From Flavipsychrobacter sp. (GTDB lineage Bacteria > Bacteroidota > Bacteroidia > Chitinophagales > Chitinophagaceae): DNA of 64,000 nt. This document shows positions 16,073 through 50,890 of the stretch, piece by piece. Position 1 is the stretch's first letter, and every line of letters starts with the position of its first letter. The position numbers and the translations under genes were made by a program. The DNA is taken from NCBI GenBank assembly GCA_016786565.1, contig JAEUVY010000072.1, forward strand, positions 1 to 64,000. The letters are read 5' to 3'. The notes beneath the pieces are model-generated. The model worked only from the letters and a program-made list of their open reading frames with translations, was not told the DNA's origin and did no database searches.

Positions 16073-16834
16073 ATGTACACGCTGAAGAAAAGTCTAGGGC
16101 AGCATTTTCTGCACGACGAGAATATGTGCAAGAAGATAGTAGGGTTTGTAACCCGCACCGAAGGCATGCAATTGCTGGAGGTGGGACCCGGAGGCGGCGC
16201 GCTCACCAAGTATCTGCTGGATTGGGAAGGCGTGCAATACAAGGCCATAGAGGTAGATCAAGAAAAGGTTGAGTACCTGAACAAGACTTACCCTGCTATA
16301 AACGGCAAGATCATACTGAAAGACATTCTGAAGGCGGACGTGCCTTTTGAGGGGCAATTCTCTGTGATCGGCAACTTCCCTTACAACATCTCGTCGCCCA
16401 TTTTGTTCAAGGTGCTGGAATGGGAGCCGCAGGTAGATGAGGTCATTGGAATGTTTCAGAAAGAGGTGGCACTAAGGGTGGCTTGTGGCCCCGGTAGCAA
16501 GGTATACGGTATCCTGAGCGTGTTGATGCAGGCGTTTTTTAAAGTAGAATACCTGGTGGATGTGCACGAGAACTGCTTTACGCCCCCGCCAAAGGTGAAG
16601 AGTGGCGTGCTGCGCTTTACTAATCAGAAAAACCCCTTCGGGATTGAAAATAAGAGGCGTTTTATTGTACTGGTGAAGGCTGCCTTCAATCAACGCAGGA
16701 AGACGCTCCGCAACGCTTTGAAGGGAACAATCCCAACAGAGAGAATGACGGATGATCCGGTATTTGATAAACGCGCTGAACAATTATCTGTAGCTGATTT
16801 TGTGACTCTATACAAGAACTATGGACAAAACTGA
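16073..16834 (+). CDS. rsmA: 16S rRNA (adenine1518/1519-N6) dimethyltransferase
   Basis: A 253-residue KsgA/RsmA that dimethylates two adenines in the 3' hairpin of 16S rRNA during small-subunit maturation. It begins with the family's SLGQHFLHDE, then SAM-binding motif I LEVGPGGGALTKYL, and the catalytic motif IV NFPYNISSPILF. The C-terminal domain carries the typical FTPPPKVKSGV and NQRRKTLRNAL. It overlaps the next gene by 14 bases, indicating translational coupling. Confidence 0.96.
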   Translation: MYTLKKSLGQHFLHDENMCKKIVGFVTRTEGMQLLEVGPGGGALTKYLLDWEGVQYKAIEVDQEKVEYLNKTYPAINGKIILKDILKADVPFEGQFSVIGNFPYNISSPILFKVLEWEPQVDEVIGMFQKEVALRVACGPGSKVYGILSVLMQAFFKVEYLVDVHENCFTPPPKVKSGVLRFTNQKNPFGIENKRRFIVLVKAAFNQRRKTLRNALKGTIPTERMTDDPVFDKRAEQLSVADFVTLYKNYGQN

Positions 16835-17792
16835 CAACAAAAAGAAAGTACTGATCGCAGCACCGGTTCATAAGGTGTTGACCGAAGGGCTGACGGCGAT
16901 GGGTTATGAGTGTGTGATAGATGAAAAGATAGACCAGAAGCGGGCCTATGAGCTTATAGGCGACTGTGAAGGAGTGATCACGTCTACAAGGTTGCAGCTG
17001 GACCGGGCTTTGCTTGATGCGGCACCCGTGTTGAAATGGATCGGCAGAATGGGGTCGGGCATGGAGGTCATAGACATGGAGTATGCTGCGGCAAAGGGAA
17101 TTGCGTGTTATGGTAGTCCGGAGGGCAACTGTAATGCAGTGGGGGAGCATGCTGTGGGCATGTTGCTGGCACTCATCAGGCGCATTACCTGGAGCCATTC
17201 GGAGATAGGCGCTAATATCTGGAAGCGCGATGAGAACCGAGGTATAGAGCTGGAGGGGCGCACCCTGGGAATAATTGGTTTCGGGCATGCGGGAGCAGCG
17301 TTTGCAAAGAAACTACAGGGGTTTGACATGCGCATACTAGCCTACGACCGCAGAGAAATAAAGGACGTGCCACCTTATGTGGAAGTGTGTGACCTGGCTA
17401 CCATCCAGCGGGAGGCGGACATTTTGAGTATTCATGTGTCCCTGCAACCCGATACGCTGAATTATTTCAACGACGATTTTCTCGCTGCCATGAAAAAGCC
17501 GTTCATTCTGGTCAATACATCGCGCGGTGTTGTGGTGAACACACATACTTTGTATAAAGGAATCAAGTCGGGCAAGGTGTTGGGGGCATGTCTTGACGTT
17601 TTTGAGACCGAGCCACTCACTCATGCGGACCAGGAACTTCGGGATATCATCAATGAGCTGATATTCAGTCCGGTAGTAATAGCCACACCGCATATTGCCG
17701 GTTACACCCACGAAGCGTTGTTTAAAATGAGTAATGTGCTCCTGGAGAAGTTGTCTGTCGACCGTAAGCGTCAAAAAGCGACATTTGCATAG
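16821..17792 (+). CDS. D-isomer-specific 2-hydroxyacid dehydrogenase (SerA-like)
   Basis: A 323-residue NAD-dependent dehydrogenase of the D-2-hydroxyacid family, close to phosphoglycerate dehydrogenases without the regulatory ACT domain. The Rossmann motif is GRTLGIIGFGHAGAAFA (about 146-162). Catalytic residues can be placed: Arg in VNTSRGVVV, Glu in DVFETEP and His in TPHIAGYTHEA. It may make 3-phosphohydroxypyruvate for serine synthesis, but glyoxylate or other 2-oxoacid reduction cannot be excluded. Coupled to rsmA by a 14-base overlap. Confidence 0.85.
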   Translation: MDKTDNKKKVLIAAPVHKVLTEGLTAMGYECVIDEKIDQKRAYELIGDCEGVITSTRLQLDRALLDAAPVLKWIGRMGSGMEVIDMEYAAAKGIACYGSPEGNCNAVGEHAVGMLLALIRRITWSHSEIGANIWKRDENRGIELEGRTLGIIGFGHAGAAFAKKLQGFDMRILAYDRREIKDVPPYVEVCDLATIQREADILSIHVSLQPDTLNYFNDDFLAAMKKPFILVNTSRGVVVNTHTLYKGIKSGKVLGACLDVFETEPLTHADQELRDIINELIFSPVVIATPHIAGYTHEALFKMSNVLLEKLSVDRKRQKATFA

Positions 17793-18045
17793 GTTATTAA
17801 TTTAATATTATAGCGATCTTAACTCTCGAAATCTGTTAATCGGGGAAAAAAGCCAAAATTTTTAAGAAAAAACCCAAGGTTGGACCAATGTGTTTCGTCT
17901 TTTAATGCAGGACGGATTGATTTTATTCTCGTTATGAAGAGAAAAAGTGTTTAAAAGTGTAAAGAAAATATGTGTTTTGACGATGGTTTTTAACAGATTT
18001 TTTTATCTTTACGCCTCATTTGCTAATAATTTATTAATGTTGGAT

Positions 18046-21000
18046 ATGACACGTACACTACGTTATCTGCTTTTGATTCTATTTACAGGACTATCCGGAT
18101 TTGTGTTTGCCCAGGGCGAAATAGCCGGTAAAGTGTTGGACGAGAAGAAAGAACCCCTTCTGAGTGCGACTGTCCAGGTTTATCAGGGCGGTATATTGAA
18201 GGGAGGAAATGTGACCGATTTTGACGGTATTTACTCTGTAAAACCGCTTGAGCCGGGTTATTACGATGTAGTTGTATCATTTACGGGATACGACTCTATC
18301 ATGGTTACCAGGGTGATCGTTGAGCCGGGTCACAGGACAACGCAGAACTTCACAATGGCAAGGGCTTCCAAGGAACTTACAGTTATGACGGTTGTAGGGT
18401 ACAAGAAGCCACTTATCAAAGAGGGTAGCGGTGGTACCACAGTATTCACCAGCGATGACATCAAAGTGTTGCCTACTACGGACGTGACAGGTATGGTTGG
18501 TCTTGCACCAAACATTTATCAGAGCAGGCGTGGTGAGGGTGTTAGCATAGGTGGTGCGCGTGGTTCGGGTACATTGTACATCATCGATGGTGTGCAGGTT
18601 CAGAACATAGGTGAAGATGCAAACACCGGTATCAATATGGCGCAGAATGCCGTGGAGCAAATGGAGGTTATGACCTCAGGTATCCCTGCGAAGTATGGTG
18701 ACGTATCCGGTGGTGTGGTGAACATCACATCTCGTGGTGTTGCAAGGAAAACTACAGGTAACGTACGTGTTCAGCGTTCAATTGACGGATACAACAACAA
18801 CCTGGCTTCGTTCTCAGTTGCCGGTCCTTTGTATAAGAAAAGGATCAAGGGCGATAGCATCAACAAAAAACCTGTACTCGGTTTCGCTTTGAGCGGTGAC
18901 TATTATAATGACCATAACAGGTTCCCTGCATACGACAAGCAGTGGGTGGTAAAAGAAGACAAGCAAGCTGCAATGGAGAAAAATCCATTGAGGATACTTT
19001 CTGACAACAGCGGCGCCAAGATCTATAACTACGAATCTAACTATGTCACTTTCGCTGACATGGAGCAAAGAAAAGTTCAGCCACGTAACCAAACTGAAGA
19101 ATATCGTTTGAACGGTAAGTTGGATTATCAGTTGACAGATAACCTGCGTGTGATTACCGGCGGTATGGTGAACTACGTTCGTGACGACGCTTACTCTCGT
19201 ACTTTCAGCCTTATGTCTCCACAAGGTACTGTAAAGAATAACTCATTCACAGGTCGTGGTTTCATCCGCTTCACTCAGAAGTTTGGCAAGATGAATGATA
19301 CGAGCTCACGTAACAGTATTATCTCAAACGCTTTCTATAGTGTTCAGGCTGACTTCCAGAGAACAACAACCTGGAGCAATGACCCACGTTTCAAGAAAGA
19401 CTTCTTTAAATATGCATACGTAGGTAAGTTTCAGGAATTGCCGAGGACAAACCGCTACATTGCGGGAGGTACTGACTCTGTGAGCACTCGTACAGGTGTT
19501 GTACTTGCAGGTAGTACTTCAAACGGATATACTTTCGATCGTTCTGAAACAAACCCGATCCTCGCAAACTATACACAGCAGTATTACAACTCTCTTGAGG
19601 GCGGACTGCCAACAAGCATCCTGCAGATCCAGGCCAACAACGGTATGGCGAATGGTGACATGCCACGCAGCACGTATTCATTCAACGGTGGCGGCCTTTT
19701 TGCAACACCAGGTACTTCAATCACTGGTTACACAAACTTCCTGTCAGACCAGTACGCTCTTGATGTGAACGCATCATTCGACCTGATGGCCGGTAAAACG
19801 AAACACGCAATTGAGTTTGGTCTTTATTACCAGCAGCGTGTGATCAAGTCTTATTCTGCGGCTGCTAACCTTGGTGGTACACAGTCTATATGGACACAGA
19901 TGAGGAACCTCGTGAGCAATCTGGATAACCAGAACCTCAGGTTGGATACTAAAAATCCTATCTTCAGGGTTAACGGCAAAGACTACACATATGTGGCTGA
20001 TCCTACTGCTCCGGGTAAAGGAACTTTCTACGACAAGACGACAAATACAATTGCAAACATATTGCCTGGTCCAACCGATACCATTTATTACGATCTGAAG
20101 AACATCAAGCAGTCAAACTTTGACAAGCAATTGAGGAAGACACTTGGTGTGTCTGACAACGCGCTGATCAACATTGATGAAGTTGATCCTTCAAAACTGT
20201 CTATGAACATGTTCTCTGCAGATGAGCTGTTGAACCTGAGCGGTAACGCGTTTGTTGGTTACTTCGGTTACACATACACAGGACAAAGGCAGACAGGTGC
20301 TGTGAACTTCAATGACTTCTGGACAGCTAAAGACAAAGACGGAAACTTCACTCGTCCGATAGGCGCGTTCACTCCTACATACATTGCAGGTTACATCCAG
20401 GACAGGTTCGATTACAAAGACCTTCATTTCAACATTGGTGTTCGTGTTGATCGTTACTCTGCAAACACTAAAGTTCTTAAAGATCCTTACTCTCTGTACC
20501 CTGTTACTACTCTGGGTCAGGTGGCAGGTACTACCAACTACACCAACGGTGGTCTGCACCCGTCTAATCTTCCAAGCGACGCGGTGGTATACGTGAGCGA
20601 CAACCAGTCAACATCTCCTTCTATCATTGGTTACCGTACAGGCAACACATGGTACGATCCGAACGGTAACGTTGTTGAAGACCCGGCAGTTCTGAAGCAA
20701 TACTCTGACGGTCGCGACCCTCAGCCGCTTATTCAGACACAGTATAAGGATATGAAGATGACGGATACAAACTACAATCCGAACCTTTCATTCACTGACT
20801 ACTCTCCGCAGGTAACTGTGATGCCACGTATCCAGTTCTCATTCCCTATTTCAGACGTTGCTAACTTCTATGCACACTATGATATCTATGCACAGAGGCC
20901 TTATCCGAATACTATCGGTAATGCAACTGCATGGGACTACTACCAGCTGTCAGCTTCACCGCCAACAGGTGTATTGCCAAATGCAAACCTGAGGTCTCAG

Positions 21001-21885
21001 CAGACATTTGACTATGAAGTTGGTTTCCAGCAAAAGCTCACCAATTCATCAGCTATCACTATTACGGCGTTCTACAAAGAGCGTAAGAACATGGTGACCA
21101 TTGTGCCTTACCTGTACGCATATCCATACAGCTATCAGACTTATGGAAACAGGGACTTCTCGTCTACAAAAGGTTCTACTGTGATGTATGACCTTCGCGC
21201 TACGAATCACCTGAAGATGACACTTTCGTACACACTTCAGTTTGCTGAGGGTACAGGTTCGTCTTATGCAAGTGGTCGTGGTCTGTTGAACACGCTGATC
21301 ACAGAAGGTCTTCCTAACCTCCGTTATGTAACTTTCCTTGGTGTTGACTCACGTCACAACATAGCTGTGAACGCTGACTACAGGTTTGGTGATGGCGAAG
21401 GCCCAACCATTGCAGGTAACAAAGTTCTTCAGAATGCCGGTGCCAACTTCATCGTAAGGACAAGGAGCGGTGAGCCATACACAAGGTACACAGACGCCCT
21501 TGCACAAACAGTGGTAGGTGGTGTAAATGGTGCGAGGTTGCCATGGCACTTCGGAACTGACGTTCGTGTGGACAAGGATTTCGCACTGAAATTCGGTAAG
21601 AGGAATAAAGAAGCTATCGAAGGTGTGAAGCCAAAACGTCCTAACTATGTGAAGGCTATCGTGATGATCAACAACCTTTTCAATACAAGGGAGATCATGG
21701 GCGTTCACGGTTTCACTGGCCGTACAGACGACAACGGTTACCTGGTGTCTTCATTCGGACAGCAGTTCGTTCCACAGCAGATCAATCCACAGTCTTACAT
21801 CGATCTGTATAAGATCTATCAGAATAATCCTGGATTCCTGAACTACGCACGTACAGTCAATTTTTCACTCGAGTTTAACTTTTAA
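18046..21885 (+). CDS. TonB-dependent receptor with carboxypeptidase-regulatory-like domain
   Basis: A 1279-residue outer-membrane receptor. The ATG at 18046 is chosen because it starts a normal signal peptide (MTRTLRYLLL to VFAQ); a further ATG lies nine bases upstream at 18037. After the signal comes a CarboxypepD_reg-like domain (about 24-105, GEIAGKVLDEKKEPLLSATV). The plug follows (about 110-245), with SIGGARGSGTLYIIDGVQVQ and YGDVSGGVVNITSRG. The rest is a large beta-barrel ending in the aromatic NFSLEFNF. It lacks a SusD partner, unlike SusC receptors. Instead a T9SS cargo and a PorV-like gene follow at 28 and 62 bp. Codon choice (GGT, CGT/AGG, AAC, GAC) looks biased as in strongly expressed genes. 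Confidence 0.92.
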   Translation: MTRTLRYLLLILFTGLSGFVFAQGEIAGKVLDEKKEPLLSATVQVYQGGILKGGNVTDFDGIYSVKPLEPGYYDVVVSFTGYDSIMVTRVIVEPGHRTTQNFTMARASKELTVMTVVGYKKPLIKEGSGGTTVFTSDDIKVLPTTDVTGMVGLAPNIYQSRRGEGVSIGGARGSGTLYIIDGVQVQNIGEDANTGINMAQNAVEQMEVMTSGIPAKYGDVSGGVVNITSRGVARKTTGNVRVQRSIDGYNNNLASFSVAGPLYKKRIKGDSINKKPVLGFALSGDYYNDHNRFPAYDKQWVVKEDKQAAMEKNPLRILSDNSGAKIYNYESNYVTFADMEQRKVQPRNQTEEYRLNGKLDYQLTDNLRVITGGMVNYVRDDAYSRTFSLMSPQGTVKNNSFTGRGFIRFTQKFGKMNDTSSRNSIISNAFYSVQADFQRTTTWSNDPRFKKDFFKYAYVGKFQELPRTNRYIAGGTDSVSTRTGVVLAGSTSNGYTFDRSETNPILANYTQQYYNSLEGGLPTSILQIQANNGMANGDMPRSTYSFNGGGLFATPGTSITGYTNFLSDQYALDVNASFDLMAGKTKHAIEFGLYYQQRVIKSYSAAANLGGTQSIWTQMRNLVSNLDNQNLRLDTKNPIFRVNGKDYTYVADPTAPGKGTFYDKTTNTIANILPGPTDTIYYDLKNIKQSNFDKQLRKTLGVSDNALINIDEVDPSKLSMNMFSADELLNLSGNAFVGYFGYTYTGQRQTGAVNFNDFWTAKDKDGNFTRPIGAFTPTYIAGYIQDRFDYKDLHFNIGVRVDRYSANTKVLKDPYSLYPVTTLGQVAGTTNYTNGGLHPSNLPSDAVVYVSDNQSTSPSIIGYRTGNTWYDPNGNVVEDPAVLKQYSDGRDPQPLIQTQYKDMKMTDTNYNPNLSFTDYSPQVTVMPRIQFSFPISDVANFYAHYDIYAQRPYPNTIGNATAWDYYQLSASPPTGVLPNANLRSQQTFDYEVGFQQKLTNSSAITITAFYKERKNMVTIVPYLYAYPYSYQTYGNRDFSSTKGSTVMYDLRATNHLKMTLSYTLQFAEGTGSSYASGRGLLNTLITEGLPNLRYVTFLGVDSRHNIAVNADYRFGDGEGPTIAGNKVLQNAGANFIVRTRSGEPYTRYTDALAQTVVGGVNGARLPWHFGTDVRVDKDFALKFGKRNKEAIEGVKPKRPNYVKAIVMINNLFNTREIMGVHGFTGRTDDNGYLVSSFGQQFVPQQINPQSYIDLYKIYQNNPGFLNYARTVNFSLEFNF

Positions 21886-21913
21886 TAATTTACCAATATA
21901 ACTATAACAGGTT

Positions 21914-24900
21914 ATGATATTCAGAAATAAATCGAAGTTTATCGGCGCGGTTGTGCTAATGGGGCTGTTGGGCGCAGGTAGTACGGTGACCGCACGCGAG
22001 AACGTTGGTGCAAAAAGACCCTCAACCCAGTTAAAGTCGACAGCTGCAGGATGCCAACCTGCGAATACATCTATCGACCTTGACGTGAACAACGTTCGTG
22101 CCCGCCTGATGACAGGTGGTGATATGTGGTGGAATCAGGGTGGCGCCAGTAACGCTGCCTACGAGATACCCAAAGGATCGGGTAAACACTCACAGTTTGC
22201 GGCCTCTTGCTGGATAGGTGGTTATGACCAGCAGGGTCAGTTGAAAGTTGCAGCTCAGACTTATCGTCAGGATGGTAACGACTACTGGCCTGGTGCTTTG
22301 GATAACGATGGAAAGATCACATCGGACCAATGTGCTGCATGGGATAAATTCTGGAAAGTTGACCGTTCGACCATCAAAAGGTTCATACAGGCATATAAGA
22401 CCGGTGGTGATCTGAAGTCATCTGATTACGATGTGATCAATGAGTGGCCTGCGGTAGGTAATGTCAATGTAAAGGGACAACAGTCGGTGAAGCTTTCATT
22501 GAATCCTAACAATACTTACGCACCATTCGTAGATGTCAATGGTGATGGTAAATATCAGCCTGAACAGGGTGAATATCCTGATATCAGGGGCGACCAGTAT
22601 ATCTGGTGGGTGTTCAATGATGCCGGTAACGTTAAGCAGCAGTCTTTGACGGCAGCAATGGGTATCGAGGTTCAAACAAGCGCATTCGCATTCGCTACGC
22701 AGGACTTCCTTAACAACGCAACGTTCTGCAACTACCGCGTTATCAATCGCGGTCCGTTGACGATCGACAGTACATACATTGCTGTATGGGATGACTGTGA
22801 CCTCGGATATTATCTGGATGACTTCATTGGTTGCGACACATCTCGTGGTCTTGGTATCATGTACAATGCTACCAACAATGATGGTCAGTCTGGCGGTAGC
22901 CCTAAAAACAGCTATGGTTTGAATCCACCGCAGATCGGTCTTGACTATTTCCAGGGGCCAAAGCGTACGGTGAAATTGCCAAGCGGTAAGGATACTATCC
23001 AGCAGTTGAAGATGACGAATTTTACGTACTACAACAATGACCCGAGTATCATTGGTAACCCTAACAACGGTATCCAGATCTATTACTACATGACCGGTTC
23101 TATCAGGAATGGTGAGCGTTTCTCTTACGACTTCACTGCAGCTGGTGTTCCATCAAAAGGTTATGGTTCTGGTCCTGTTTCTCCGTTTGTGTTCTGGGGC
23201 GATCCTTCTGAAAACAATCAGTGGTCTGAGTGTGCATGTGGTAACAACCCGGGTGACAGGCGCTTTATATTCTCTTCTGGTCCGTTCCAGCTGAAACCGG
23301 GTGCCGTTAATGACATCACTTTTGGTTGTGTGTGGGCATCAGGCACTGGTGGTTGTCCTTCAACAAGCTTCAAGACAATAAAAAATATTGATGACGGTGC
23401 GCAGGCGCTGTTTGATAATAACTTTAAAACAGTAGAGGGTCCTGAGGCTCCACGTCTGGTAGTGAGGGAGCTTGATCGCAAACTTGCATTCTACCTGGTG
23501 AATGACTACGGTAGCAATAACTTCGGTGAGAATTACGGTCGCTCTGACGGACCATACAATGACTCACTGCTGTATCACCAAATCGTAGTTAAGTCTAAAG
23601 GTGTAAGCGATGACTCGTTGTATAAATTCCAGGGTTACCGTGTGTTCCAGTTGGCTAACAGCCAGGTTTCTACCGCGGAGATATTTGACCCTATTACCGG
23701 TGAAGTTGACCCAAGTAAAGCGGTAGAGGTGTTCCAGTGTGACATCGCAGACAGCGTTACTCAGATCGTAAACTACACCAAGAATCTGCCTGTAAGTGAT
23801 ACTACGCACATTGCGCAGATCAAAGTGAAAGGTAGGGATAGTGGAATTGTTCACAGTTTTGTTTTGACTCAGGACCAGTTTGCTACAGGTAACGATAAGC
23901 GTTTTGTGAACTACAGGAACTATTATTTTACTGCGATCGCCTATGCTTATAACAACTTCAGGCCATTCGATCCGAAGAATACAGTAAGCACACAGGACGT
24001 TCCGTACCTGGGTAGTGCGCACTCTGCGGGAGGTAACGAGATCAAGATCGTTGCTGCACTTCCTAATCCGTCTAACGGCGCAATGGGTACCACTTTGAAC
24101 TCTGATTACGGTGATGGTGTTATCATCAAGAGGATACAGGGTACAGGTAACGGTGGCCTTGAGGTACAAATGGATGAAGAGTCTGAGAATACCGCTGTAA
24201 ACAACGGCAGCGTATCACAGCCATCATATCTTCAGGGCCTCGGACCGGTGAATGTTAAGGTTATCGATCCGGTGAAAGTACCTGCTATGGATTGGGTGCT
24301 TCAGATACACGGTGCAAATGAACTGACAGGTACAGGTGTAAATGCTGCTTATGTTGAAGGTATTGTTGACTCAGGTTCATGGACCCTCACTGGCTATGGC
24401 GATGGCGGTGCAACAGTTACTATCTATGGTGAAAAGTCTATCGGAACACCAAATGAGCAGATTCTTGCTGACTATGGTTTGTCAGTAAGCATCAAGCAAG
24501 TTGCTCCTCCTGGATCACAAGCTAAGGGTTCTAAAAATGGATACATCCACTCGAATGTTGTATTTGAGGATCCGTCACAGCCATGGTTGTGGGGCGTGAA
24601 CGATGAGTCTGACAGTAGCTTCGCTAACTGGCTGAGGTCTGGTTCAAATTCAGCATTCGGTGCTACAAGTGCAACGAACCCATGTAACTTCAACGACATT
24701 AAGTTGGGTGGAGACTTCCTCGATCCTAAGTCTGCGTTTGGTTCGATGATGTCGAACTTCTCTCCAACCAAAGCTTCATGGGGTCCTTACGGTCTTGCTG
24801 CCGGTTATTTCCCTCCGGGATCAGCATCTAATACAGCTGTATGCGGACATCATCCTGCTGCATTCTTCTTCACAAGGCTCAATGAGTTCAAAGTGTTGCC

Positions 24901-25963
24901 TGATGTGGATCTTGTGTTCACCAGCGATAAGTCTAAATGGACTCGTTGCGCAGTATTGGAACTGCAGGAAGATGAAAATCTGGCTGAGAATAAAGGCAAG
25001 AAGTTCTTCCTCAGGAAGCATAAAGGGTGGAACAAAGATGTTAACGCAGATGGTAGTCCTAAGTATTCAGAGTCAGCTGATGACGAAGGTATGTCCTGGT
25101 TCCCGGGTTATGCTATCGATCAGAATACCGGTGAGCGTCTGAACATCGTGTTTGGCGAAGACTCTTACCTGTCTAGCGATAATGGTAATGATATGATCTG
25201 GAACCCAACGAGCCCTGCGGGATTCAACGGTTTCAACCCATACGACAATACTATTGTATTCGGGGGTAAGCACTATGTGTATATCCAGGGTACCAAGTAC
25301 GACAGCGGTAAAACCTTTGTCAAGAATCTGAAGGCTGTAGGTTCAAGCATTCCATTGCACAGGGCAGCTTATTCAAACTTCCAGTGGGTTGGTCTTCCTA
25401 TGCTGAATCCAAACAGCAAGTTGCTTTCTCTGAAAGACGGTTTGATCCCAACTACAACAAGGTTGAGGTTCCGTGTGGATAGGCCATATATGCCATATGC
25501 GGCTACCGACACAACAACTGCGTTCAACAAGCCTGGAACTACCATTAAGACCGGTGAGGCATCTAACCCTTACTACACTTTCAGTACGAAGGAGTTGGCA
25601 CCATCTAAGCTTTCTGACACTACCGACAGGAACAGGTTTACATCTCGTATCCAGGCTGTACCTAATCCATACTACGGATACTCAGGATACGAAAGGCCAG
25701 GTAGCCGTTTTGACACTAAAGTGAGGATCATAAACCTGCCGGCAAAAGCAGAGATACGCATCTACTCTCTTGACGGTACACTTGTTCGTACGTTGTCTAA
25801 GAGCGATCCGGGAACATCTTACATTGATTGGGATATCCGTAACTCTGTAGGTCTGCCTATTGCTAGTGGAATGTACCTGATGCATGTAAAAGCGGAAGGA
25901 CTTGGTGAAACAGTGATCAAGTGGTTTGGTTCATTGCGCCCACTCGACGTAACTCAATATTAA
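21914..25963 (+). CDS. large T9SS type A-sorted surface protein
   Basis: A 1349-residue exported protein with a signal peptide (about 1-28, ending TVTAR). Residues of about 55-480 form a region shared with the 537-residue protein at 49277-50890: GGDMWW, AAQTYRQDGNDYWPGALD, a DxNxDG-type possible Ca site (DVNGDGKYQPEQGEYPD), WWVFNDAG and TYYNNDPSIIGNP. The middle is unrecognised. The C-terminus has AVPNPYYGYSGYE and a FlgD/T9SS-like Ig fold (IRIYSLDGTLVRTLSKSDPG, ASGMYLMHVKAEG) with an extra tail (LRPLDVTQY). Function unknown; likely exported through T9SS. It sits between its receptor-like and PorV-like partners. Confidence 0.88.
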   Translation: MIFRNKSKFIGAVVLMGLLGAGSTVTARENVGAKRPSTQLKSTAAGCQPANTSIDLDVNNVRARLMTGGDMWWNQGGASNAAYEIPKGSGKHSQFAASCWIGGYDQQGQLKVAAQTYRQDGNDYWPGALDNDGKITSDQCAAWDKFWKVDRSTIKRFIQAYKTGGDLKSSDYDVINEWPAVGNVNVKGQQSVKLSLNPNNTYAPFVDVNGDGKYQPEQGEYPDIRGDQYIWWVFNDAGNVKQQSLTAAMGIEVQTSAFAFATQDFLNNATFCNYRVINRGPLTIDSTYIAVWDDCDLGYYLDDFIGCDTSRGLGIMYNATNNDGQSGGSPKNSYGLNPPQIGLDYFQGPKRTVKLPSGKDTIQQLKMTNFTYYNNDPSIIGNPNNGIQIYYYMTGSIRNGERFSYDFTAAGVPSKGYGSGPVSPFVFWGDPSENNQWSECACGNNPGDRRFIFSSGPFQLKPGAVNDITFGCVWASGTGGCPSTSFKTIKNIDDGAQALFDNNFKTVEGPEAPRLVVRELDRKLAFYLVNDYGSNNFGENYGRSDGPYNDSLLYHQIVVKSKGVSDDSLYKFQGYRVFQLANSQVSTAEIFDPITGEVDPSKAVEVFQCDIADSVTQIVNYTKNLPVSDTTHIAQIKVKGRDSGIVHSFVLTQDQFATGNDKRFVNYRNYYFTAIAYAYNNFRPFDPKNTVSTQDVPYLGSAHSAGGNEIKIVAALPNPSNGAMGTTLNSDYGDGVIIKRIQGTGNGGLEVQMDEESENTAVNNGSVSQPSYLQGLGPVNVKVIDPVKVPAMDWVLQIHGANELTGTGVNAAYVEGIVDSGSWTLTGYGDGGATVTIYGEKSIGTPNEQILADYGLSVSIKQVAPPGSQAKGSKNGYIHSNVVFEDPSQPWLWGVNDESDSSFANWLRSGSNSAFGATSATNPCNFNDIKLGGDFLDPKSAFGSMMSNFSPTKASWGPYGLAAGYFPPGSASNTAVCGHHPAAFFFTRLNEFKVLPDVDLVFTSDKSKWTRCAVLELQEDENLAENKGKKFFLRKHKGWNKDVNADGSPKYSESADDEGMSWFPGYAIDQNTGERLNIVFGEDSYLSSDNGNDMIWNPTSPAGFNGFNPYDNTIVFGGKHYVYIQGTKYDSGKTFVKNLKAVGSSIPLHRAAYSNFQWVGLPMLNPNSKLLSLKDGLIPTTTRLRFRVDRPYMPYAATDTTTAFNKPGTTIKTGEASNPYYTFSTKELAPSKLSDTTDRNRFTSRIQAVPNPYYGYSGYERPGSRFDTKVRIINLPAKAEIRIYSLDGTLVRTLSKSDPGTSYIDWDIRNSVGLPIASGMYLMHVKAEGLGETVIKWFGSLRPLDVTQY

Positions 25964-25975
25964 TCTCGATCTCAG

Positions 25976-25999
25976 TTCCGGGCGGTACGCCGCCCGGAA
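25976..25999 (+). terminator. intercistronic hairpin
   Basis: A perfect 10-bp GC-rich stem (TTCCGGGCGG, TACG loop, complement) lies 12 bp after the cargo gene and is followed by an AT-rich stretch without a long T run. It may partly terminate transcription or stabilise the upstream mRNA, separating the level of cargo from that of the PorV-like protein. Confidence 0.6.
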
Positions 26000-26025
26000 T
26001 AATAAATATTTTATAGTTTATAATT

Positions 26026-27108
26026 ATGAAAAAACTTTCGATAAAATCATTTGTTGCGTTGTGTGCGATAGCGGCTTCTTATTCGGCTATGGCCGGAAAC
26101 AAGGACCGTTCTGGTCAGGCAGGAGCTCCTGAAATGATGATCAATCCATGGGCGCGAACAACAGGTGTTTTTGGCCTGAACGTGTCGCACATTACCGGTA
26201 TGGAGGCGATGAAGTCGAATGTGGCCGGTCTGGCATCGACTAATTCAACAGAGGCGGGTGTGTCGCGCGGACAGTACCTTGCTAATACCAACATTAACAT
26301 CAACAACCTTGCTATTGCGCAGAAGCTGGGCGAAGCGGGCGTTATCGGTGTAAACCTGATGTCGATGAACTTCGGCGATATCACAACAACGGATTATTTC
26401 AATCCGGAAGGTGTGGGTAGTTATCGCCCTCAGTTCCTCAACATTCAACTTGCTTATGCCAAGCAGTTCTCTTCTCACGTTAACGCAGGTGCGTCAATGA
26501 CGTATGTGTCTGAACAGGTGGGAAATATCGGCGCGCTGGGTGTAGCATTTGAAGGTGGTATCCAGTACGTGACCGGTAAGAAGGATAACTTCCATTTCGG
26601 TATCACGCTCCGTAACCTGGGTAGTAACATGCGTTTCACCGGTACCGGTTTTGCGGTTAATGCTGATAAGCCACAGAGCAACCCTTCTTTCGCTGTGTCT
26701 CAGCAATATCCTGCTGACAAATTCTCAATGCCTACGTATCTGAACTTTGGTGCAGCATATGATTTTTATCTGGATGAACATCACCTGAGCAGCAAGGACA
26801 GCACGCCTAAACACAGGCTGACTGCAATGGCAAACTTCCAGTCGAACTCATTCAACAATGATTACCTCGGGGTAGGTGTTGAATATGGCTTCAGGAATAT
26901 GGTCATGTTCAGGACTGGATATCGCTACGAAAAAGGTATCATGAGTGCAGACAAGTCAACTACTATGTATTCCGGCGTAGCTGTAGGTGCAACAGTGCAG
27001 AAGAAATTGGGTGAAGATGGTCCTACGGTATCTCTTGATTACTCTTTCCGTCCTACTCAGCGTCCTGCGAACGGTGTACACATGATGTCCATCCGTTTTA
27101 CACGCTAA
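26026..27108 (+). CDS. PorV/PorQ family outer-membrane protein
   Basis: A 360-residue FadL-like beta-barrel protein. The signal peptide covers about 1-23 (ending AMAG). The mature N-terminus shows the PorV/PorQ pattern with an early Gly-rich phrase (INPWARTTGVFGLNVSHITG) and Asn-rich strands (NTNININNLAIAQKLG). It ends in the barrel-type strand MMSIRFTR. PorV shuttles T9SS cargo from the translocon to the attachment complex; PorQ-like paralogues may serve specific cargo. The position just after a T9SS cargo suggests a dedicated partner (inference). Confidence 0.85.
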   Translation: MKKLSIKSFVALCAIAASYSAMAGNKDRSGQAGAPEMMINPWARTTGVFGLNVSHITGMEAMKSNVAGLASTNSTEAGVSRGQYLANTNININNLAIAQKLGEAGVIGVNLMSMNFGDITTTDYFNPEGVGSYRPQFLNIQLAYAKQFSSHVNAGASMTYVSEQVGNIGALGVAFEGGIQYVTGKKDNFHFGITLRNLGSNMRFTGTGFAVNADKPQSNPSFAVSQQYPADKFSMPTYLNFGAAYDFYLDEHHLSSKDSTPKHRLTAMANFQSNSFNNDYLGVGVEYGFRNMVMFRTGYRYEKGIMSADKSTTMYSGVAVGATVQKKLGEDGPTVSLDYSFRPTQRPANGVHMMSIRFTR

Positions 27109-27134
27109 TTCTAAAATTTAGTATTTTTACATCG

Positions 27135-27170
27135 CAACGCTTCTGTCAAACAGGGGCGTTGTGTTTTTTT
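27135..27170 (+). terminator. terminator after the PorV-like gene
   Basis: CAACGCTTCTG pairs with CAGGGGCGTTG (two G-U pairs) and is followed by TGTTTTTTTT. It closes the TonB receptor/cargo/PorV unit. Confidence 0.8.
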
Positions 27171-27198
27171 TCAGTACAAATCAAAAAATTACAGAACA

Positions 27199-27672
27199 AT
27201 GTCTGAATTGAATTATCTGACTAAGGAAACGCTGGCCCAGATGAAGGAGGAGCTGAATAAGTTGAAAACTGTGGGTCGTGCAGAGATAGCCAGGCAGATA
27301 GCCGAGGCAAGAGAGAAAGGTGACCTGAAAGAAAATGCAGAGTATGATGCAGCAAAGGAAGCACAAGGACATCATGAGGCGAAGATAGCGCAGCTTGAAA
27401 GTGCAATTGTAACTGCAAGGGTAATTGACGCGAAGGATATTGATACAAGTAAGGTTTCTATACTCAGTAAAGTGACAGTTACTCATCTGGGTAATAAAAA
27501 GACTTTTGTTTATCAGATAGTTTCTGAAAAGGAGGCTGATCTGAAGCTGGGCAAGATATCTGTAACCTCTCCGATAGGTAAGGGATTATTGGGCAAACAC
27601 GTAGGAGATATAGCTGAGGTAACAGCACCAAGTGGTAAATTCAGTTTCAAGGTTGAAAGTATTACCATCTGA
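27199..27672 (+). CDS. greA: transcription elongation factor GreA
   Basis: A 157-residue GreA, the usual length. The N-terminal coiled coil (about 8-75) carries the acidic tip signature REKGDLKENAEYDAAKEAQG, with the D and E residues that coordinate the metal in the RNA polymerase secondary channel. The C-terminal FKBP-like domain ends with SPIGKGLLGKHVGD. It rescues backtracked RNA polymerase by stimulating transcript cleavage. It is followed two bases later by the HIT gene. Confidence 0.96.
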   Translation: MSELNYLTKETLAQMKEELNKLKTVGRAEIARQIAEAREKGDLKENAEYDAAKEAQGHHEAKIAQLESAIVTARVIDAKDIDTSKVSILSKVTVTHLGNKKTFVYQIVSEKEADLKLGKISVTSPIGKGLLGKHVGDIAEVTAPSGKFSFKVESITI

Positions 27673-27674
27673 TA

Positions 27675-28073
27675 ATGGCAACGATTTTTTCTAAGATCAT
27701 CTCTGGAGAGATACCGAGTTATTCGATAGCTGAGGACGAACGGTTCTTCGCCTTTCTAGACATAGCACCCATGCGTGAAGGGCACGTATTGGTAGTACCT
27801 AAAACGGAAACGGACAAGATCTTCGATGTTGCTGACGATCTGTTGAGGGAGTGGCTTGTGTTTGCAAAACCCATTGCCAAGGCAATAGAAAGTACATTTC
27901 CCTGCAACCGCTGCGGAATCAGCGTTGTGGGTCTGGAGGTGCCGCATGCACATATGCATTTGATCCCGATCGATTCGGCCGATGATCTCAATTTCACGCG
28001 TCCCAAGTTGAAGGTGTCGCCGGAAAGAATGAAAGAAATTCAGGAAATGCTTCTGGTCAAACTGAATGGATAG
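27675..28073 (+). CDS. HIT family hydrolase
   Basis: A 132-residue histidine-triad protein. The active-site triad is HAHMHLIPI with His91, His93 and His95. The N-terminal SKIISGEIPSYSIAEDERF and a LDIAPMREGHVLVVPK strand pair fit the Hint/HinT-like branch, which hydrolyses nucleoside phosphoramidates and similar nucleotides. Cytoplasmic. Its two-base spacing from greA indicates one transcript. It converges with the S1/P1 nuclease gene, five bases apart, with no visible terminator between them. Confidence 0.93.
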   Translation: MATIFSKIISGEIPSYSIAEDERFFAFLDIAPMREGHVLVVPKTETDKIFDVADDLLREWLVFAKPIAKAIESTFPCNRCGISVVGLEVPHAHMHLIPIDSADDLNFTRPKLKVSPERMKEIQEMLLVKLNG

Positions 28074-49276: not shown

Positions 49277-50890
49277 ATGAGACACCTGTACACTACTATC
49301 CTTTTGTTTGCTGCTGCACACACCCATGCGCAAACGCCTTTTCCTGATGGTGATTCTTTGTGTGTAAACAACCTGAACGTGATGTCGCTCGCGCACGGTG
49401 ACATGTGGCATACAACAACACCGTTCAGGCAACATTGCAGGTTCTCTGAGGGTAGCCGGCAAGGAATGTATCTGGCTGGAGCAGTGTGGCTTAGTGCCGT
49501 TGACGCGTCGGGGAATTTGCACGTTTCGGCACAGACCTACCGTCAAAATGGAAACGATTTTTGGCCTGGTCCACTTGATGCATCGGGAGGTCTCGATTAT
49601 ACCACATCGGCCAAGTGGGCTAAAGTCTGGAAGGTGAGCAGGGGTGAAGTGAATACACATAGGGCGATAGTATTTCATAATCTCTCGAATACACCTCCGT
49701 CAATTCTCTCATGGCCTGGTAAAGGCAATGTGTATGCAAAGGGCCGTGGTGATGTTCCGCTTGATGTGATCGGCGACATGGCACCATTTGTTGATAGGAA
49801 TGGTGACGGCATCTATCAGCCGTTGTCAGGTGAGTATCCCGACTTTAAAGGAGATGGTGCATTGTGGTGGGTGTTCAGCGATAACGGACCTGCTCATAAC
49901 GAGACAAATGGTGCCCCGCTGAAAGTGGAGATCCATGCTATGGCCTATGGTTACAAGAGATCAACTCCTATAGATAACGTAGTGTATTACGACTATGAGA
50001 TCATCAATCGATCGGGGAAAGACTATACTGACATGCGATTCGCGATATGGAGCGATCCGGAATTGCGTGCATATGAAGACACGTATATAGCGTTTGATTC
50101 GGCCCGCAGATTGGGTATCATTTATAGTGCCGTCGATTCGGGTAGCGGACCATCAGGCACTCCGTCCGGCGCATACGGAACACATCCCCCGGCGGCCGGA
50201 ATTTCCTTTTTAAAGGTGCCGGGCGATGGAGGTGTGGGGTATGTGCCGGTAGGAAGTTATACTTACTATAACAACGATCCATCTGTTATCGGTAATCCAT
50301 CCTCTCCTGCAGAGTACGACGGATATATGAGGGCGCGGATGAGAAATGGAGATCACATAAAGAAGAATGGCGTTGATGTGGACTATATAGTAGGAGGAGA
50401 TCCATTTGATACGTCCGAGATAATGGGTTGTGTGTATGGCGGTGCTGCAGGCGACATGCGGACTGTTATGGCTACGCGTGGGTTTGCTCTGGATGATAAA
50501 AGAAGGGAACATATTGTTTTCGCATTAGTTGCGGATTCCGCTGCCGGCGGCTGTCCTTCACTTGATCTATCCGGGTTGAATAGAGTAGCCGATACCGCAT
50601 GGGGTGTCTATCATAACCCGCCACCCGAATTGGGCGTAAATGACCACCTGGCACGTTCAGGATCTATCAGTGTCTATCCCAATCCCGTGTATGATGTTTT
50701 GATTGTAGACGGAACACAGCAAGGGGCTGTGGTTATTGTGTCAAATATGCTTGGCGCTACAGTCGCGTCCGCAGCTTATTCCGGCACAAGCACAATTAAG
50801 GTGCCGCTGCATGAATTACCAGTTGGGTTGTATGTTGTTCGTTATACCGATTCCGTAGGGACAGTTGCAAACACGGTCATGAAGCAATAG
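49277..50890 (+). CDS. T9SS type A-sorted protein, short relative of the 1349-residue cargo
   Basis: A 537-residue exported protein (signal peptide about 1-18, ending THAQ). Residues of about 25-450 align with the N-terminal third of the protein at 21914-25963: HGDMWH, SAQTYRQNGNDFWPGPLD, DRNGDGIYQPLSGEYPDF, WWVFSDNG, TYYNNDPSVIGNP and GGCPS. The C-terminal ~75 residues are a T9SS type A sorting domain (VYPNPVYDVLIV, VGLYVVRYTD). It has no PorV- or receptor-like neighbour. Function unknown; it probably is the minimal form of the shared domain plus a sorting tail. Confidence 0.87.
   Translation: MRHLYTTILLFAAAHTHAQTPFPDGDSLCVNNLNVMSLAHGDMWHTTTPFRQHCRFSEGSRQGMYLAGAVWLSAVDASGNLHVSAQTYRQNGNDFWPGPLDASGGLDYTTSAKWAKVWKVSRGEVNTHRAIVFHNLSNTPPSILSWPGKGNVYAKGRGDVPLDVIGDMAPFVDRNGDGIYQPLSGEYPDFKGDGALWWVFSDNGPAHNETNGAPLKVEIHAMAYGYKRSTPIDNVVYYDYEIINRSGKDYTDMRFAIWSDPELRAYEDTYIAFDSARRLGIIYSAVDSGSGPSGTPSGAYGTHPPAAGISFLKVPGDGGVGYVPVGSYTYYNNDPSVIGNPSSPAEYDGYMRARMRNGDHIKKNGVDVDYIVGGDPFDTSEIMGCVYGGAAGDMRTVMATRGFALDDKRREHIVFALVADSAAGGCPSLDLSGLNRVADTAWGVYHNPPPELGVNDHLARSGSISVYPNPVYDVLIVDGTQQGAVVIVSNMLGATVASAAYSGTSTIKVPLHELPVGLYVVRYTDSVGTVANTVMKQ

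Follow-up and report, generated by a model that had tools for sequence, protein, structure and literature searches.

A conserved three-gene module linking a TonB-dependent receptor, a T9SS cargo and a PorV-family barrel in Bacteroidota

Three adjacent genes in a 64,000-nucleotide stretch of Flavipsychrobacter DNA (hereafter, the window) form one operon-like unit. They encode a TonB-dependent receptor (18046..21885, 1279 aa), a cargo of the type IX secretion system (T9SS; 21914..25963, 1349 aa) and an outer-membrane barrel of the PorV/PorQ family (26026..27108, 360 aa), all on the forward strand. We hold it very probable that these genes are a conserved functional unit. Our main reading, with a probability of about 0.5, is that they specify a surface complex coupled to TonB, whose purpose is probably nutrient uptake. 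Its lid or capture subunit would be exported by the T9SS and kept by a PorV-type carrier of its own, with the C-terminal domain (CTD) left uncleaved.

An earlier note on this DNA had described the genes as co-oriented and 28 and 62 nt apart, and open reading frames, order, strand and spacing are all as it claimed. It had also proposed a strong shared codon bias. Nc is indeed low in all three genes (receptor 44.5, cargo 46.9, barrel 46.0; median 52.8), which rank 3, 9 and 5, respectively, among 45 genes; the bias is thus shared, but its degree is moderate. A strong intrinsic-terminator-like hairpin with a T run does follow the barrel gene (27133..27163, forward strand). The view that the genes end at one terminator is nevertheless an incomplete account, since a second, GC-rich hairpin of 11 pairs lies inside the unit, between cargo and barrel (25975..26000, forward strand). 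Stems with 7 or more pairs and 4 or more GC were found in 46 of 74 related cargo-barrel gaps versus 12 of 365 shuffles, and their sequence differs between relatives. Possible roles for such a hairpin are to lower barrel expression or to shield the cargo mRNA. No site matched the Bacteroidota promoter consensus in positions 17001-28000. A 2-hydroxyacid (phosphoglycerate) dehydrogenase gene is located upstream of the module at 16821-17792.

The receptor frame opens at a GTG at 17947, and the ATG at 18046 yields a clean signal peptide (...GFVFA, followed by Q). The protein carries a signal peptide, a CarboxypepD_reg-like domain, a plug and a barrel. The N-terminal domain, correctly recognized in the earlier note, matches Pfam CarboxypepD_reg at 52.5 bits (cut-off 32.3; residues 26-116), and the plug matches PF07715 at 33.7 bits (cut-off 23.9; residues 128-224), which identifies a TonB-dependent receptor; receptors of distant members have the barrel domain of ordinary TonB receptors. 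The SusC/RagA model TIGR04056 gave no match for the window receptor among hits at E values up to 10, and a distant homologue scored 70.6 bits against this model (cut-off 368). The receptor had been presented as lacking a SusD partner. This stands in that the adjacent cargo belongs to no SusD family, but the receptor itself is not SusC/RagA by the curated model, so there was never a SusC-SusD pair from which SusD could vanish.

The neighbourhood of the three genes was compared in close and distant relatives, and its conservation, which had been put forward as a check, was strongly confirmed. All three genes occur in order in 70 of 79 close-relative loci, and the remaining 9 are cut by contig ends. 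In these loci, receptor-cargo gaps range from -1 to 64 nt (76 loci) and cargo-barrel gaps from 30 to 130 nt (73 loci). Close-locus synteny is weak evidence, because the flanks are conserved as well (greA in 70, HIT in 69, the dehydrogenase in 59 and ksgA in 58 of the 79 loci). Of 296 genomes from this phylum, 100 were matched by a cargo profile; weaker matches often span the C-terminal domain only, so fewer than 100 genomes have the full tailed type. From 60 of these 100 genomes, belonging to other families and classes, we took 60 loci, picked among the better matches. Receptor, cargo and barrel follow one another in the same order and on the same strand in 51 of the 60; four loci are cut by contig ends, and five (L133, L140, L155, L175 and L181) are real exceptions without a partner. 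Among these distant loci greA and HIT are kept in only 6 and the dehydrogenase in 15. The three genes have thus stayed together longer than they have kept their neighbours, though the dehydrogenase, too, is an old neighbour. One distant locus (L132) contains two copies of the module in tandem. The module also occurs in Flavipsychrobacter stenotrophus (L032).

Unrelated functions often share bacterial operons, and the three genes might be merely co-transcribed envelope genes with separate roles. The housekeeping genes conserved around the close loci would fit such an arrangement. We consider it very improbable, as order and strand persist in the distant loci where the other neighbours are mostly different, and as several divergent copies within one genome keep the same composition.

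The product of the second gene had been called a giant T9SS cargo. With a Sec signal peptide and an Ig-like CTD of T9SS fold, it is a T9SS cargo in the wide sense; "giant" is generous for 1349 residues. Its body matches no Pfam family, SusD included, and its signal peptide has no lipobox. A sequence search of the PDB with all three proteins returned no matches. The cargo was folded with AlphaFold2 as two overlapping halves, using 69 aligned relatives as input; the models reached pLDDT 85.3 and pTM 0.82 for residues 25-760 and pLDDT 83.8 for residues 700-1349. In the model, an N-terminal domain (residues ~47-507; 22052..23434, forward strand) resembles, by VIA-align, the beta-supersandwich N-domains of GH15, GH65, GH94 and GH116 enzymes, and the best match is 9ju0_CCC (Z 18.9, 253 aligned residues, 3.2 A). 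These matches fall mainly on the N-terminal domains of the enzymes, and their (alpha/alpha)6 catalytic barrel was not seen in the cargo, which was modelled in halves. Foldseek TM-scores for the same enzyme chains are at most 0.26, as only one domain matches. For the middle of the protein (approximately residues 730-1230), which the fold matches barely cover, there was no convincing fold, and this should not be taken as evidence for a new one.

At its C-terminus the cargo carries a T9SS domain that resembles that of PorZ and is not recognised as a type A signal. The top fold match of the modelled domain (residues ~1240-1341; 25631..25936, forward strand) is the PorZ structure 5m11 (Z 10.4, 86 aligned residues, 2.1 A, 22% identity), followed by a next match at Z 7.7; 8gl6_D, a RemA-CTD complex, and 8gl8_D, a translocon with RemZ, matched at Z 7.0 and 6.9. 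By sequence, the domain and the PorZ CTD match at 27.8 bits. It scores below the curated cut-offs of TIGR04183 (18.6 of 23) and FlgD_ig (19 of 27), and PF18962, the type A CTD family, is not among the Pfam matches of the cargo. Among the matches listed for cargo and barrel there was no type B CTD (TIGR04131-type) or PorP model. The organism's own genome has 150 PF18962 matches.

The cargo differs further in its last residues. In ordinary type A CTDs, of which a sample was taken from this genome, the chain ends with the last strand or a few residues later, and module cargos extend eight residues past the canonical CTD end, here as RPLDVTQY (25937..25960, forward strand). The motif [KR]WFG..RP.[DE]...[YF], placed at the very end of the protein, is present in all 74 close cargos with a complete end. 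Of 63 distant cargo frames, 52 end exactly 13 residues after the last-strand Lys and 55 have F, Y or L as the final residue; L133 and L140 account for four of the misses, with frames that do not belong to the module. The tail is absent from 16 of 16 cargos of other operon types in five genomes. Its residues 1342-1349 have pLDDT below 50 in the monomer model, and R1342, P1343 and D1345 are invariant in a 29-row alignment. Conservation together with low pLDDT is as expected if the segment folds on a partner.

A candidate for that partner is encoded by the third gene. As had been stated from the sequence, the barrel is of PorV/PorQ type, scoring 128.1 bits against the family model NF033709 (cut-off 90). 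It lies well below the equivalog cut-offs of PorV (NF033710, 54.7 of 250) and PorQ (NF033711, 54.0 of 220), and its score against PorV2 (27.3 bits) is also far under the cut-off. The genome itself encodes PorU followed by PorV (419.8 bits), as well as PorQ (316.8 bits) and SprA, so the module barrel, its third PorV-family gene, is an extra member in a T9SS-bearing genome. In a quick tree, from which some multi-copy loci were left out, barrels accompanying tailed cargos group in a single clade of 55 rows (SH-aLRT 100), separate from that of canonical PorV (20 rows, SH-aLRT 98). SprA is found in all 100 cargo-positive genomes and in 227 of the 296 overall, in a co-occurrence test (Fisher) that ignores the species tree.

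How such barrels may act is suggested by better known systems. Excerpts of PMC10202324, PMC10994853, PMC11285876 and PMC11969387 describe PorV as taking type A cargo from SprA and binding its CTD, and report that the CTD of PorU is retained on PorV and that of PorZ on PorQ. Protection of CTDs from cleavage by cognate PorV-like barrels is a proposal made in the excerpted part of PMC10202324. By analogy, all three module proteins would reach the periplasm via Sec, and the T9SS translocon would export the cargo, its link to SprA being one of co-occurrence. The PorV-type barrel of the operon, and not the general PorV/PorU route, would then receive the PorZ-like CTD with its 8-residue tail; off that route, we propose, the CTD would stay uncut and the cargo would remain anchored to the barrel in the outer membrane. 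Tail and CTD would thus serve as the address and the barrel as carrier and anchor, the two proteins forming a cognate pair. That the barrel is a dedicated carrier with a retained cargo CTD is, we infer, fairly likely.

The barrel might instead be a shuttle only, with the cargo cleaved and either released or glycan-linked, acting as a haemophore-like binding protein, free or cell-bound, whose ligand the receptor imports. Canonical PorV, in the excerpted literature, shuttles cargo to PorU in this manner. In addition, a 597-aa frame elsewhere in the window (49352-50866) encodes a domain paralogous to the N-terminal one of the cargo, at 35% identity, joined to a type A CTD of the ordinary kind and with no pair of receptor and barrel genes next to it, so this domain can work outside the module. 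We judge a shuttle-only barrel unlikely because the cargo CTD is PorZ-like, and the CTD of PorZ is uncleaved according to the excerpted text of PMC11285876; the conserved tail and the dedicated barrel clade also favour retention.

The tailed module appears to belong to a wider set of operons. Searched genomes of other classes have 6-19 PorV-family genes each, and we surveyed 39 further PorV-family places in five other genomes, with genes called by strand-and-distance rules. Seventeen of these places have the order receptor, cargo, barrel, with CTD-bearing cargo frames of 715-1287 aa; three (L219, L227 and L245) have receptor and barrel with no cargo between them; five have a PorU-sized gene (1310-1373 aa) ahead of the barrel gene; two have a cargo and a barrel but no called receptor; and the other 12 fit none of these arrangements. 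One genome (G030) has nine operons of the receptor-cargo-barrel type. Across 22 operons of five genomes, distances are correlated between cargo body and receptor (r 0.86), barrel and receptor (0.75) and barrel and CTD (0.62), all with p 0.0001 when labels were shuffled only within genomes. These correlations indicate units that duplicated and diverged whole; they are evidence of linkage and do not imply contact, since joint divergence follows from whole-operon duplication. Together with the family scores, the separate clade and the repeated operons, this joint divergence supports the earlier suggestion that the PorV-family barrel is dedicated to its module. A broader generalization, to which we give somewhat less than an even chance, is a class of TonB uptake complexes that spans the phylum as a counterpart to SusCD and has a T9SS-exported surface subunit. 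In this class, PorV-family barrels would have diversified into cargo-specific carrier-anchors, and the kind of CTD, fixed 8-residue tail included, would address the cargo to its own barrel and receptor, away from PorU.

With respect to the receptor, the cargo body, with its sugar-enzyme-like beta-supersandwich and further domains, may sit over the neighbouring receptor as a lid or capture subunit, the job that SusD does for SusC. It is plausible that the cargo takes SusD's place as receptor lid, and we put the odds of such a lid serving uptake at about even. Uptake is the most likely purpose given a receptor in the same operon. We also considered that, instead of importing, the receptor may use TonB power to help assemble, gate or anchor a surface adhesin or a structural layer. 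The scan for recurrent neighbours of the module in distant loci took in 40 upstream genes (of 50 called) and 40 downstream genes (of 47 called). Upstream, 2-hydroxyacid dehydrogenases recur (9 of 40), and downstream a GWxTD-domain protein (PF20094, function unknown) is the gene next to the barrel in 13 of 40 loci; the genome studied here has one such protein, away from the module. No catabolic, metal or siderophore genes recurred in these flanks, and no substrate could be inferred. The GWxTD neighbour, the lack of recurring catabolic or siderophore genes in the scanned flanks and an operon number of one to several per genome could all be accommodated by a non-importing receptor. Its plug domain, the ordinary receptor barrel of distant members and the sugar-active enzyme domains that best match the cargo fold argue against it, and we regard this possibility as quite unlikely, somewhat more so than a shuttle-only barrel.

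That the module excludes SusD was examined and rejected as an argument. Among the 227 SprA-positive genomes, PF07980 is present in 44 of the 100 that have the cargo and in 106 of the 127 that lack it; the odds ratio of 0.16 was obtained by a Fisher test ignoring the species tree, is confounded by phylogeny and depends on a model that misses some SusD proteins, and it was therefore not used as proof. The genome studied here has no SusD by PF07980 and one SusD-like gene by PF14322 (28.5 bits of 27), as compared with 22 plug domains. Ten other genomes of the family were checked, and all have SusD by PF07980 and lack the cargo.

Returning to the TonB-coupled uptake complex, it shares features with several known systems and coincides with none of them. 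As in SusC-SusD and BtuB-BtuG, a TonB receptor, here with a CarboxypepD-like N-terminal domain, lies beside a large surface protein that is its proposed cover. Unlike in those systems, the curated model does not class the receptor as SusC, the partner is a T9SS cargo rather than a lipoprotein, and a PorV-family barrel is added as a third gene. With a receptor under the SusC cut-off and a cargo that is no SusD-type lipoprotein, the best reading is a module that is SusCD-like in its working, yet not SusCD. PorZ-PorQ and PorU-PorV likewise pair a CTD-bearing surface protein with a PorV-family barrel; the module CTD is nearest to PorZ in fold, and porU directly precedes porV as the cargo gene precedes the barrel gene. 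However, equivalog scores place the module barrel with neither PorV nor PorQ, the cargo body was unrelated to PorZ and PorU in the searches run, and the 8-residue tail and the receptor gene within the operon are additional. Type B CTD proteins with PorP/SprF, with or without PorE, similarly have a cargo gene followed by its own barrel gene, in several copies per genome; according to excerpts of PMC12618676 and PMC9143113, each type B cargo has its own PorP/SprF carrier, which sets its destination. The module differs from these in a CTD that is PorZ/type A-like by fold, a barrel of the PorV family and a receptor in place of PorE. Finally, canonical type A cargos share the seven-stranded Ig-like CTD family and a SprA dependence judged, for the module, by co-occurrence, but the module CTD is below the TIGR04183 and PF18962 thresholds and has an extra tail and a dedicated barrel. 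No description of the operon was found in open-licence full-text literature, which leaves its absence from the literature unproven; the BAM papers PMC12578637 and PMC12611786 concern other complexes.

We would describe the TonB-T9SS module as known parts newly combined, with a T9SS carrier-cargo pair joined to TonB uptake. In the literature consulted, PorV is treated as the sole carrier of type A cargo, and cognate carriers are described for type B (PMC12618676). If PorV-family barrels are cargo-specific and tied to TonB receptors, T9SS would also be an assembly route for uptake complexes, SusCD would gain a counterpart made of other parts, and many genes annotated as "PorV/PorQ family" or "hypothetical" would acquire a testable role. 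The module likewise makes the escape of some CTDs from PorU cleavage testable. Overall, the retention of the trio across the phylum suggests an uptake complex whose outer part is exported by a non-textbook route.
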